From: Acidobacteriota bacterium
GTDB lineage: Bacteria > Acidobacteriota > Terriglobia > Acidiferrales > UBA7541
DNA length: 64,000 bases
Assembly: GCA_003223245.1 (NCBI GenBank)
Contig: QHYI01000118.1
Span: 46,126 to 110,125 of the forward strand
Direction of reading: 5' to 3'
Under the pieces are notes generated by a model that searched no databases, was not told the DNA's origin, and worked only from the letters and a program-made list of their open reading frames with translations. Shown here in pieces: positions 39,696-57,175 of this stretch (the stretch's first letter is position 1; each line of letters begins with the position of its first letter). Made by a program: the position numbers and the translations under genes.

Positions 39696-39940
39696 TGGCC
39701 CTAATGACCACGACCGTGAACGCCGCGATGGCGATTGGGTTGACCATGATTGCGTCGATGGTGCTTAAGCTCAGCCATTTGCAAGCTATGGTCCTCTTCG
39801 CTCTGGTGATTTCGGTTGCGTTCGGATTCCTGGGTCGCCGCCGGCCCATGGAACGCTTGAAGTACATCCTTTGGACGCTGCTTCTGTTTCTCTTGATTGG
39901 CGTGGGCATCGGCTGGGCCATGTATCCCTTCTCCCACTGA
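39692..39940 (+). CDS. Small two-helix membrane protein
   Basis: 82 residues with helices about 5-45 (broken by a polar stretch, SHLQ) and 58-76 (KYILWTLLLFLLIGVGIGWAM), ending PFSH. ATG 39692 overlaps the previous stop (ATGA). Function unknown. Its last 115 nt plus 23 nt beyond the stop recur at 57044-57175 in decayed form, so the 3' end of this gene may be the insertion point of a mobile island. Confidence 0.65.
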   Translation: MMALMTTTVNAAMAIGLTMIASMVLKLSHLQAMVLFALVISVAFGFLGRRRPMERLKYILWTLLLFLLIGVGIGWAMYPFSH

Positions 39941-39963
39941 ACGTCTTGCCGGGAACAGTTCCG
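39825..39963 (+). repeat. Left copy of 139-nt direct repeat (putative island boundary)
   Basis: From GATTCCTGGGTCGCCG to GGAACAGTTCCG, covering the 3' end and stop of the small membrane gene. The right copy at 57044-57175 has the same orientation, differs by roughly half a dozen substitutions and lacks 7 nt. The left copy keeps an intact reading frame. Confidence 0.85.
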
Positions 39964-40474
39964 GGTCGAAAGCGTCACGCCACACCCTGTCACTGCCCAT
40001 CACAGCGTGCCCGATGCCGCAATTCGCCCCAGGTAAGCGTCGAAATTATTCACCCACCCTGTGCTTGGAACGAGCTGAGAATTCCCCGCATGCGGCTTGA
40101 AACCTGTGTAGCGGATTTGAAACAGTCCATTCAAATATAGCGAGAACTCCCTTTCCGAGGAGCGCATAGAACGCGTGGGTCTGCAGGTTCCCAAGGTGTT
40201 TCGGTGGCAGGCTACGACGATATCTCGCTGGCTAGCTGACAGATCCTCAATTAACCACTATCAGAATCCCGAGAACTTCTTCTGCCTTCTGCGAGTTCGC
40301 AAACAGTTTCAGTATTCCTCAACCAAATCTTTTGAAAATCGGGTTTGAAACCCAAATTCAAATTGCAGATGGTGGTAATCGACAAGTTCCCATTTCTAGT
40401 GATGCGCAGAGGGAAACCCGCCCTCGCAGCAAAATATTGCGATAGCGCGGAGAGAAGATTCTTAGATTTTACGC
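39964..40474. other. Gene-free stretch with a LacI-family remnant
   Basis: About 510 nt without an intact gene. At 40169-40239 two adjoining frames read ERVGLQVPK then GVSVAGYDDISLAS and a stop, which resembles the conserved core of LacI/GalR-type repressors (VPxDVSVxGYDDI) with one frameshift. Nothing else is recognisable. Confidence 0.4.
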
Positions 40475-40503
40475 TTGACAGTGGAAAGGTCGGCGCGAAT
40501 AAT
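40475..40503 (+). promoter_or_regulatory. Predicted promoter of the TonB-dependent receptor gene
   Basis: TTGACA (40475-40480, perfect), 17-nt spacer, AATAAT (40498-40503, one mismatch). Transcription would begin near 40510, just ahead of the operator at 40521. Confidence 0.6.
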
Positions 40504-40520
40504 GCAAAACCATTAGGGAC

Positions 40521-40532
40521 GTAAACGCTTAC
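40521..40532. promoter_or_regulatory. LacI-type operator, receptor side
   Basis: GTAAACGCTTAC, a GTAA-TTAC inverted repeat around a CG-rich centre, like operators of LacI/GalR-family repressors. It lies about +11 to +22 from the predicted start, where binding would block transcription. 11 of 12 bases match the site at 50392-50403. Confidence 0.55.
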
Positions 40533-55408: not shown

Positions 55409-55468
55409 GACCAAGTTTTGGGTACTGCGTGTCGGCTTGACGGGTTCAAGGCATCCACAGTGCCGACG

Positions 55469-55673
55469 TTAACATACTCTCGGTTCGAAAATGCCTAGCT
55501 GCGAGGCTTCCTCCTCCAGCGTCATGCGATGCACCAGATCCGTCGCGCTCTTCGGGCGAAAGTTTGATGTTCATGTAAGGGCGATTCGGAGTCTCTTGAG
55601 CTGCGGTCACACAAACCAAGAGAGCCGTGCAAGTAGTCAGGAGCTCCTGAATTCGCCTTCGGAAATAGTTCAT
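55469..55673 (-). pseudogene. GH3 beta-glycosidase remnant (N-terminus only)
   Basis: ATG 55673 overlaps the esterase stop by four bases and opens a signal peptide (LLTTCTALLVCVTAAQ) and YMNIKLSPEER. The next part in frame is nonsense, but shifting the frame gives TDLVHRMTLEEEASQLGIF and a stop at 55469. Together LSPEER-(A)-TDLVHRMTLEEEASQL is the typical start of a secreted GH3 beta-glucosidase or xylosidase. A 2-nt loss in a GCGCG run explains the shift. The remaining 600 or more residues are gone. Confidence 0.7.
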
Positions 55674-56875
55674 TTCGTTTTCCCATTATCAAATAGTCTG
55701 GCTGCAAAATCCTTGAGATCGCGGCGCCACGTCTGCCATTCGTGGTCAGTGCCTGGTGACTCGTAAAAGACGTGCTGAATCTTGGCTTCTTGAAGCGATT
55801 CGTGCAGCCTTAAGATTCCCGAGCGCATTCTTTCAGGCTCTTGCATCCCTACGCCCAGCCAGAGCAAGTGAACTTTCTTCGCGAACCCGGCCGGATCAGC
55901 AAAGACCACGTTGTAATCGGTTTTAGGATCCAGTTTCCGGTTTCTAAGCACCAGCATCCCGCCCGCTCCACTGAATCCACCGATGTAGGAAAAGAGATCG
56001 AGATGATTCAGGGTGATCTGGAAAGTCTGCATGCCTCCCATAGAGAGGCCGGCCATCGCGCGGTGATCGCGATCGGGAAATGTTCGGAAAGTCGAATCAA
56101 TATAGGGGATCAGAACCTGGGTAACATCATCTTCAAAGGCCGCCGTCATGTCCTGCATTGCCTTCATCACCTCTGGAGACCCGAAAGGCTTTCCCGTCAG
56201 ATCAGGCGGCGCTTGGCCAGCGCGACGTGCGTAGCCGTAGGCCATGACGAGGATCATAGTTTTGCAATTTCCAGCGGCAATCAGATTGTCGAGGATGAAA
56301 TTCGCATGCCCCTGCCGAATCCAGCCTGTCTCGTCTTCTCCTCCACCATGCTGTAGATAGAGCACGGGATACCGCACGTTGGCCTGCGTATCGTAATTCG
56401 GCGGCAGATAGACCAGCGCGTGCCGCCAAGTGCCTGTCACTTTCGAGTTGTACCAAATCTCGCGTACCTGCCCGTGCGCTACATCTTGGATCGAATAATA
56501 GGTAGAGCCCGCTTCAGGGACCTCAACCATGCTCGTGTACTTGCCTCCTCCAAAAAACGCAACACTGTTTGTGTCGCTGACCTCCGCGCCATCAATGATC
56601 AACGTGTAGTAGTGCAAGCCTGGGACAAGGGGCGGAGTGGTGATGGTCCAGAATCCGTCTGCCTGCTTTTCCATGTCCAGCTTCGGGCCGCTCCAGAAGT
56701 TCAGCCTTACCTTAGTGGCGTCCGGAGCTTTCACGCGGACTTGTACCCTCCCGGTACCGTCGACGCGAGGATACTCCGCGCCCCACACATTCGTTGCAGC
56801 GGGATGAAAGTCGCTCGGCTCTTGCGCGTAACAAGAGGTAGCGAAAAGAAGGATTGCTAATCCAATCGGCTTCAT
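55670..56875 (-). CDS. Secreted CE1-like esterase with N-terminal carbohydrate-binding domain
   Basis: 401 residues. Signal peptide 1-18 (FATSCYAQ). About 25-115 form an E-set/CBM48-like immunoglobulin domain ([36 protein letters not shown]). The esterase-D/feruloyl-esterase fold follows, with the nucleophile S278 in [11 protein letters not shown] and the catalytic His in [16 protein letters not shown]. Such enzymes remove ferulate or acetate from hemicellulose side chains. ATG 56875 with GGGGAG upstream is chosen over an earlier start. It was the first gene of an operon with the GH3 gene whose remnant follows. Confidence 0.9.
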
Positions 56876-57043
56876 ACGTTCTCCCCAATGATCGTTGTCC
56901 AGCAGCACAGAAAACTTTCACGCCGGGATCAAGCACGCCATACGGGTTCGCGGAAACGCAATCTTTACCGCTGTGCATACCGAAAAACTCCATCCAGCGG
57001 TTTCCCGTCGAATGACTATTGTTACTTCCCGGTCGCGCCTTCT

Positions 57044-57175
57044 GATTCCTGGGTCGCCGTCGGCCCATGGAACGCTTGAAGTATATCCTTTGACGCTGCT
57101 TCTCTTGATCGGCGTGGGCATCGGCTGGGCCATGTATCCCTTCTCCCACTGAACGTTTTGCAGGAAACAGTTCCG
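57044..57175 (+). repeat. Right copy of the direct repeat (decayed gene 3' end)
   Basis: 132-nt copy of 39825-39963 in the same orientation. Relative to the left copy it lacks one G after ATCCTTT and six bases in the helix-coding run, which breaks the frame, while flanking bases are nearly identical. Upstream, 56876-57043 holds no gene that I can support. Confidence 0.85.

Follow-up and report, generated by a model that had tools for sequence, protein, structure and literature searches.

A stretch of 64,000 nucleotides (nt) from an Acidobacteriota bacterium, probably a soil organism and, judged by its relatives, a Gp2 acidobacterium (contig QHYI01000118.1; here the window, lying in contig G000:C219 of its own genome, G000), contains a block of accessory genes bounded by direct repeats of the 3′ end of a small membrane gene, which we call S. 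The locus raises the question of where this DNA entered. Elements that integrate at the 3′ ends of genes are known, for example at icd of Escherichia coli, and an earlier note on the window had placed the entry site at the 3′ end of S. Comparison with related genomes points to a different gene. We consider it likely, with a probability of about 0.65, that the 18 kilobases (kb) between S and the gene for transfer RNA (tRNA)-Thr(CGT) are the decayed product of islands that integrated into the anticodon loop of this tRNA from its 5′ side, and that the repeated S end is a later recombination scar.

Relatives reveal the locus without its insertion. The comparison set for copy counts consisted of 36 same-genus genomes, in 33 of which S was located by tblastn; counts for S exclude G012, G016 and G021, where the neighbouring M24 gene is without a full match. 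We called tRNAs with ARAGORN and assigned protein families with Pfam. Thirteen of the 33 genomes (G002, G004, G007, G008, G009, G010, G019, G020, G022, G026, G033, G034 and G035) show S followed on the same strand by an intact tRNA-Thr(CGT), about 60–215 base pairs (bp) away, and the same pair is present in G036, a member of the same family. A promoter-like element, TTGACA ... GCTA, is conserved between the two genes in G008, G010, G022, G026, G034 and G035. A divergent tRNA-Thr lies ~350 bp from S in G031, and G003 has a tRNA-Thr 1.1 kb from S with the native promoter still in front of it. In the window, the tRNA starts at position 57944, 18,003 nt past the S stop codon (39940), and the insertion is absent from the orthologous site of these relatives. 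The earlier note had proposed to look for an empty site joining S directly to the sequence right of 57175; an empty site exists, but there S runs into tRNA-Thr(CGT). Eight of the 33 genomes (G000, G001, G006, G015, G017, G018, G025 and G030) showed no intact tRNA on the expected strand and no tRNA half near S within the stretches fetched, some of which end at a contig edge.

The tRNA is split in another ten of the 33 genomes (G005, G011, G013, G014, G023, G024, G027, G028, G029 and G032), where an orphan 5′ tRNA half stands behind S and the native-type promoter. These halves comprise the first 39–47 nt of the tRNA query; the break falls in the anticodon loop, at or close to GATTCGTAA, and other sequence follows. 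G027 holds a whole island on one contig, consisting of the half, 14 kb of DNA, an integrase, and an intact tRNA 12 nt past the integrase stop codon; its cargo of receptor, TPR and CRTAC1-type genes is of the same kinds as in the window's block. G014 has 8.5 kb between the half and the intact tRNA, and an integrase of a different sort ~500 nt ahead of the latter. The order integrase–tRNA recurs in G005, in G030 and on a contig labelled Nitrospirae NS_9. The tRNA half of G015, G028 and G032 is itself preceded by the right-end signature of these islands and gives way to other sequence, in G032 to the left end of another island, an arrangement that reads as tandem accretion. Because the empty sites join S to tRNA-Thr(CGT) and ten genomes have a split tRNA, the 3′ end of S is probably the wrong attachment site.

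The right end of the window's insertion carries int1, a tyrosine integrase remnant reduced to its C-terminal half. Some 194 of 393 codons, at the N-terminus, have no counterpart, and one frameshift and one stop interrupt the rest; the reading frame ends 92 nt before the tRNA. The element thus contains a tyrosine integrase gene, but a broken one, and the island should no longer move by itself. Positions 57246–58018 of the window fall into one gapped local alignment with the integrase–tRNA segment of G005, which assigns int1 to a tRNA-targeting element and not to S. The earlier note, from which the tRNA was absent, had an integrase remnant beginning inside the right repeat, as the relic of an island at S. 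Only the open reading frame (ORF) 57158–57604 starts there; integrase homology sets in behind the repeat, from about 57230–57246. Between int1 and the tRNA lie arm-like direct repeats, with comparable ones, read by eye, in G024, G032, G015 and G005, followed by a right-end signature that reads GAAATAAGTCTTTTATTACCAA in the window (one match, with 0.00 expected in the window). A like signature is joined to the start of the tRNA or its half in 7 of the 36 genus genomes; these do not include the window's own genome, whose copy carries three additional bases ahead of the tRNA and so falls outside the pattern. No native tRNA promoter was found before the window's tRNA, either by comparison with relatives or in a profile test. 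Taken together, the G005 alignment, the signature and the missing promoter indicate that an element acting from the 5′ side most likely rebuilt the window's tRNA-Thr(CGT), with the crossover expected in the anticodon loop.

At the left end, an arm-like motif just behind the intact S resembles the left ends of islands in relatives. A similar motif stands behind four of the ten orphan halves next to S (G013, G023, G024 and G027), 48–74 nt past the half, and behind the tRNA half in G032:C471. Counted over 27 loci with the island matches included, this motif class has a frequency of 0.03 per kb. An exact 14-mer, CTGCCCATCACAGC, is shared with G023; the 9 loci that contain it, among 154, all come from the window's own genome or from G023. 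The block also differs in composition from its left flank, a comparison that the earlier note had suggested, with a GC content of 54.9% against 58.1% and a tetranucleotide distance of 0.206 against 0.09–0.127 for 12 overlapping left-flank pieces of equal length.

These features are consistent with the following course of events. A circular element would carry, immediately downstream of its integrase gene, a copy of the tRNA 5′ half. Recombination in the anticodon loop would keep the host's original 5′ half, with its promoter, next to S and would join the element's 5′ half to the host's 3′ half, yielding an intact tRNA directly behind the integrase. The block with its receptor/TPR/GH27/CRTAC1 cluster may have arrived with such an element, as the left-end motif suggests, and the left tRNA half would have been deleted later. 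Two closely related lineages would each have contributed a version of the locus, and these would have been joined by homologous plus microhomology-mediated recombination or by capture of an S end on a circle, giving two S-end copies. A former tandem element is possible, arrays at this tRNA being present in G028 and G032.

The repeat pair itself is as first described. Segment 39825–39963 recurs at 57044–57175, aligning as two ungapped pieces, 39884–39968/57096–57180 (92%) and 39818–39873/57037–57092 (93%); the left copy keeps its 81-residue frame, which the right copy, shorter by 7 nt (1 + 6), no longer has. A search of the window's own genome returned the segment at two places only (second copy 89%, E = 3.5e-50). 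Used as a query, the right copy matched 23 of the 36 genus genomes, with two copies in the own genome only (1/36). No second S end was found in the 35 other genus genomes, 13 of the 36 giving no match at that sensitivity, so that a diverged second copy could be missed there. A dispersed repeat, considered as an identity for the S end, is ruled out by the two places in the own genome and the lack of a second copy in relatives.

The differences between the copies are unevenly placed. With gaps omitted, they affect 3 of 109 aligned coding positions, all synonymously, and 5 of 28 non-coding positions (Fisher p = 0.009, in a single comparison on low counts). The pattern suggests that each copy spent most of the period since their divergence within a functional gene and, as such a history fits two lineages and not one duplication, that two S lineages were brought together in the window. 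The left and right copies are similarly close to the seven relatives compared, which does not distinguish the native one. On its left, the right copy is joined, over a few bases of apparent microhomology read by eye, to the inside of a genus-dispersed repeat of 40–242 bp with a sharp left edge, found in G011, G016, G017, G018, G022, G030 and G031. Searches with four integrases as queries, and a Pfam run on the ten main ORFs of the block, found no integrase between the S repeats. On the strength of the synonymous differences, the microhomology edge and the lack of an integrase between the copies, we read the pair as the joint of two versions of the hot spot; in this view the repeated S end likely marks a later recombination event and not the point of entry.

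Among the alternatives, an element may have integrated site-specifically at the S 3′ end, brought a replacement end and displaced the original to 57044–57175. Direct repeats of the S end do stand at both ends of the block, as in icd-like elements, with the left gene intact and the right copy broken; the synonymous differences would also fit a replacement end under selection, and the left-end motif lies 53 nt past the S stop codon, a spacing comparable to that behind the tRNA halves of the four relatives. We nevertheless regard this origin as unlikely. Unlike in icd-like elements, the repeats enclose no recognisable integrase and no use of the same gene end was seen in other genomes, the duplication being found in one of the 36 genus genomes; at its left edge the right copy is fused to the interior of a dispersed repeat, and the integrase relic is part of an integrase–tRNA right end. 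What stands of the original mobile-island proposal is therefore the island-type DNA, the tyrosine-integrase relic at its right side and the empty site in relatives, without S as the attachment site. A tandem duplication in one lineage from S rightwards, with the second copy mostly deleted and its S end fused to int1, would need no second lineage and would agree with the right copy carrying most of the polarisable changes. It is very unlikely, as a dead fragment should diverge equally in coding and non-coding sequence, in contrast to the small but uneven counts above, and as it requires a 17-kb duplication plus the loss of nearly all of one copy.

The cargo has a history of its own. Parts of the receptor–TPR–GH27–CRTAC1–cytochrome cluster (40579–55414) are kept in G018:C147, G012:C590, G017:C132 and G023:C36. 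A fragment of another gene and the end of a LacI-type gene precede the cluster, which, being known from other loci, makes the block a mosaic. That the cluster came by transposition or general recombination, int1 being an older, unrelated leftover at the tRNA, is very improbable: its presence at other loci in four genomes and its left edge, cut inside the LacI-type gene and abutting another gene fragment, would fit, but the left-end motif of tRNA islands stands directly at the block's left edge and the G027 island carries the same gene kinds (receptor, TPR, CRTAC1-type).

Several observations weigh against integration at the tRNA as the source of the 18 kb. A displaced 5′ tRNA half was found neither in the own genome at DNA-search sensitivity nor in 39901–58800, where nothing rose above chance, so the strict island signature fails at the window's left end and the window is a decayed relative, not a complete member, of the 5′-fragment islands. 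Six of the ten orphan halves beside S lack the left-end motif, and in pairwise alignment only the G013 match scores above all 60 shuffles (29 against a maximum of 24; G023, 28 against 31; G024, 23 against 26). Since this motif resembles the sub-type of G013, G023 and G027 and int1 resembles the G005 integrase, two elements may be involved; int1 moreover lies outside the repeat-bounded block, which makes the link between them indirect. The profile test detected no native promoter behind the left S copy and, behind the right one, a weak trace (p 0.03 in the best of six tests). In single-genome alignments, the promoter did not stand out behind either copy, the score being reached by 7–190 of 200 shuffles on the right and 8–156 of 200 on the left. 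In G018, G024 and G029 the tRNA has the right-end signature before it, but no integrase ORF was recognised immediately upstream, judged by printed ORF ends. Finally, the cargo cluster occurs at other places (84% in G018, 84–94% in G012, also in G017 and G023) and need not have arrived by integrase.

On the 3′ side of the tRNA, the window contains a second integrase remnant, int2. It has no Pfam match of its own; the 427-residue integrase at the same place in G030 has PF00589. Behind int2, the stretch 58712–59256 is 97% identical to G018:C275, and a 3′ tRNA half with a different T-stem lies on the same strand 8 kb rightward, outside the window (G000:C219:112153–112206). A second island, in the usual 3′-side arrangement, appears from these matches to span 58019–64000 and to continue to G000:C219:112206. 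A DNA search found no other full copy of tRNA-Thr(CGT) in the own genome. With a second island on the tRNA's 3′ side, both halves of the window's tRNA may be element-borne. At locus L041 of G014 (11093–12370), an integrase ~34–36% identical to int2 is located on the 5′ side of the tRNA, so the use of sides may switch within families.

The 5′-side arrangement extends beyond tRNA-Thr. A profile built from three integrases and run against 95 genomes of the order (E ≤ 1e-30) found relatives in 27 of them and listed 43 places, of which 30 were loci fit for ARAGORN. At 18 of the 30 loci, the integrase is followed within 250 nt by a same-strand tRNA (Thr 7, Glu 4, Met 2, Gln 2, Asp 2, Asn 1), and at 14 of 26 when the window and the three profile sequences are set aside; the tRNA is farther off in three of the remaining loci and absent in five. 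A scan of genome contigs gave five loci only, four of them apparently in genomes already sampled, all five with a same-strand tRNA behind the integrase. In G033, tRNA-Gln(CTG) at C105:42183–42257 and an integrase at 42358–43320 share a strand with an orphan 5′ half at 80757–80796 (nt 1–40 of the tRNA, 100%), 38.5 kb upstream on the same contig. G033:C105:42183–80796 is a probable 38.5-kb 5′-side island in which the integrase frame is open, and it would serve well as a model of such islands. We tentatively propose that the Gp2 acidobacteria and their order possess an integrase clade specialised in rebuilding tRNA front halves (Thr, Gln, Glu, Asn, Asp, Met), which would remove the tRNA from its own promoter to a place directly behind the integrase, and that the only tRNA-Thr(CGT) of the window's genome would be stitched from a left-island 5′ half and a right-island 3′ half. 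Among the points against our main reading of the window, 4 of the 30 loci have the tRNA on the opposite strand within 450 nt, which is the 3′-side arrangement; no orphan half was found for the tRNA-Gln of G018, where a 5′-side integrase is present; and no orphan 5′ half of tRNA-Glu was found in five genomes, the query not matching G112 at all. Locus L172 (VBOL01000039.1), labelled Nitrospirae, has an integrase–tRNA-Thr segment with 93–97% DNA identity to the Gp2 acidobacterium AA85, and the two bear similar sample labels; the likeness reflects either transfer between phyla or a binning error.

The features of the locus are collected in Table 1. The S product matched no Pfam family. Near its left end, the window also contains two pairs of inverted repeats, 328–773/11379–11824 and 2356–2531/9707–9882, with 146–269 nt at 78–84% and the arms ~7–11 kb apart.

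Table 1. Features of the S–tRNA-Thr(CGT) locus, in window coordinates
Feature	Position	Strand	Evidence
DUF6677 gene, conserved left flank	39246..39695	+	PF20382, E=4e-22; tblastn matches adjoining S in relatives' loci
S, small membrane gene (81 residues), conserved left flank	39695..39940	+	tblastn matches in relatives
Left copy of S 3′ end, intact	39825..39963	+	Self-comparison, own-genome search
Left-end (arm-like) motif CTGTCACTGCCCATCACAGC	39987..40006	+	Similarity to islands' left ends in relatives
Gene fragment, 85% similar to G015:C198:1409-1566	40007..40164	.	Sequence comparison
Remnant (gene end) of LacI-type regulator preceding cluster in relatives	40169..40276	+	LacI label from ORF sequences, no family search
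TonB-dependent-receptor-like outer membrane protein	40579..44343	+	PF25183, PF13620, PF00593
Two TPR proteins, 44475-45539 and 45508-46398	44475..46398	-	Pfam TPR
Two TPR proteins, 46579-48195 and 48192-49148	46579..49148	+	Pfam TPR
GH27 alpha-galactosidase	49200..50363	-	PF16499, PF17801
CRTAC1-type FG-GAP/UnbV_ASPIC protein	50436..52406	+	PF13517, PF07593
Multihaem cytochrome	52396..53643	+	PF13435, PF14522
Second CRTAC1-type protein	53657..55414	-	PF13517, PF07593
Esterase	55670..56908	-	PF00756; 76% DNA identity in G006:C54
Piece of genus-dispersed repeat, ends where right copy begins	56971..57036	.	Matches in 7 other genomes
Right copy of S 3′ end, frame broken	57044..57175	+	Self-comparison, own-genome search
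int1, C-terminal half of tyrosine integrase	57230..57851	+	PF00589, E=1.2e-7; 62% and 84% identity to G005 integrase
Direct repeats between int1 and tRNA, arm-like	57868..57891	+	Sequence inspection
Right-end signature of 5′-side islands, 22 nt, GAAATAAGTCYTTTATTAYCAA	57917..57938	+	Pattern search
tRNA-Thr(CGT), intact	57944..58018	+	ARAGORN; comparison with relatives
int2, remnant of second, 3′-side island	58110..58709	-	96% protein identity to 427-residue G030 integrase

The locus illustrates how the repeated end of a protein gene may pass for an attachment site even where an adjoining tRNA is the likelier target. A bacterial group of mostly 5′-side integrases makes it testable whether elements can take over the expression of a host tRNA, whether the integrase and the tRNA share a transcript, and why the 3′ side usually wins. 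Islands of the 5′-side kind are known but rare. Our literature search returned nothing specific on two-sided tRNA sites or 5′-side integrases in Acidobacteria, and we did not meet this integrase group, its tRNA range or the two-sided site there.

With elements of the icd type, the window shares a direct repeat of a gene end around accessory DNA; it differs in that no integrase was found inside, no second case in the genus, and a microhomology joint at one edge. The nearest archaeal counterparts are the pTN3-like integrases, whose attachment site (attB) lies in the tRNA 5′ half, the tRNA then being expressed from the integrase promoter; a review states that this is seldom met in bacteria, where rebuilt tRNAs are expressed from the original promoter with very few exceptions (PMC8371274). 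The islands described here resemble them in the rebuilt 5′ half and the integrase directly upstream in the same direction, and differ in that the integrases are bacterial and there is no sign of an int gene split by integration. Islander lists 3919 tRNA islands, 3760 with a 3′ fragment and 159 with a displaced 5′ fragment (PMC4383910). As 3760 of the 3919 leave a 3′ fragment, the rebuilt tRNA would normally stay under its own promoter. Islander's 5′-fragment islands have in common with ours the tyrosine integrase, the anticodon-loop crossover, an intact tRNA and a fragment at opposite ends, and the 5′ fragment upstream (PMC4383910). Compared with them, the window lacks its displaced half, the integrases of one bacterial order stand mostly 5′ of several different tRNAs, and tRNA-Thr(CGT) hosts both tandem and two-sided arrangements.

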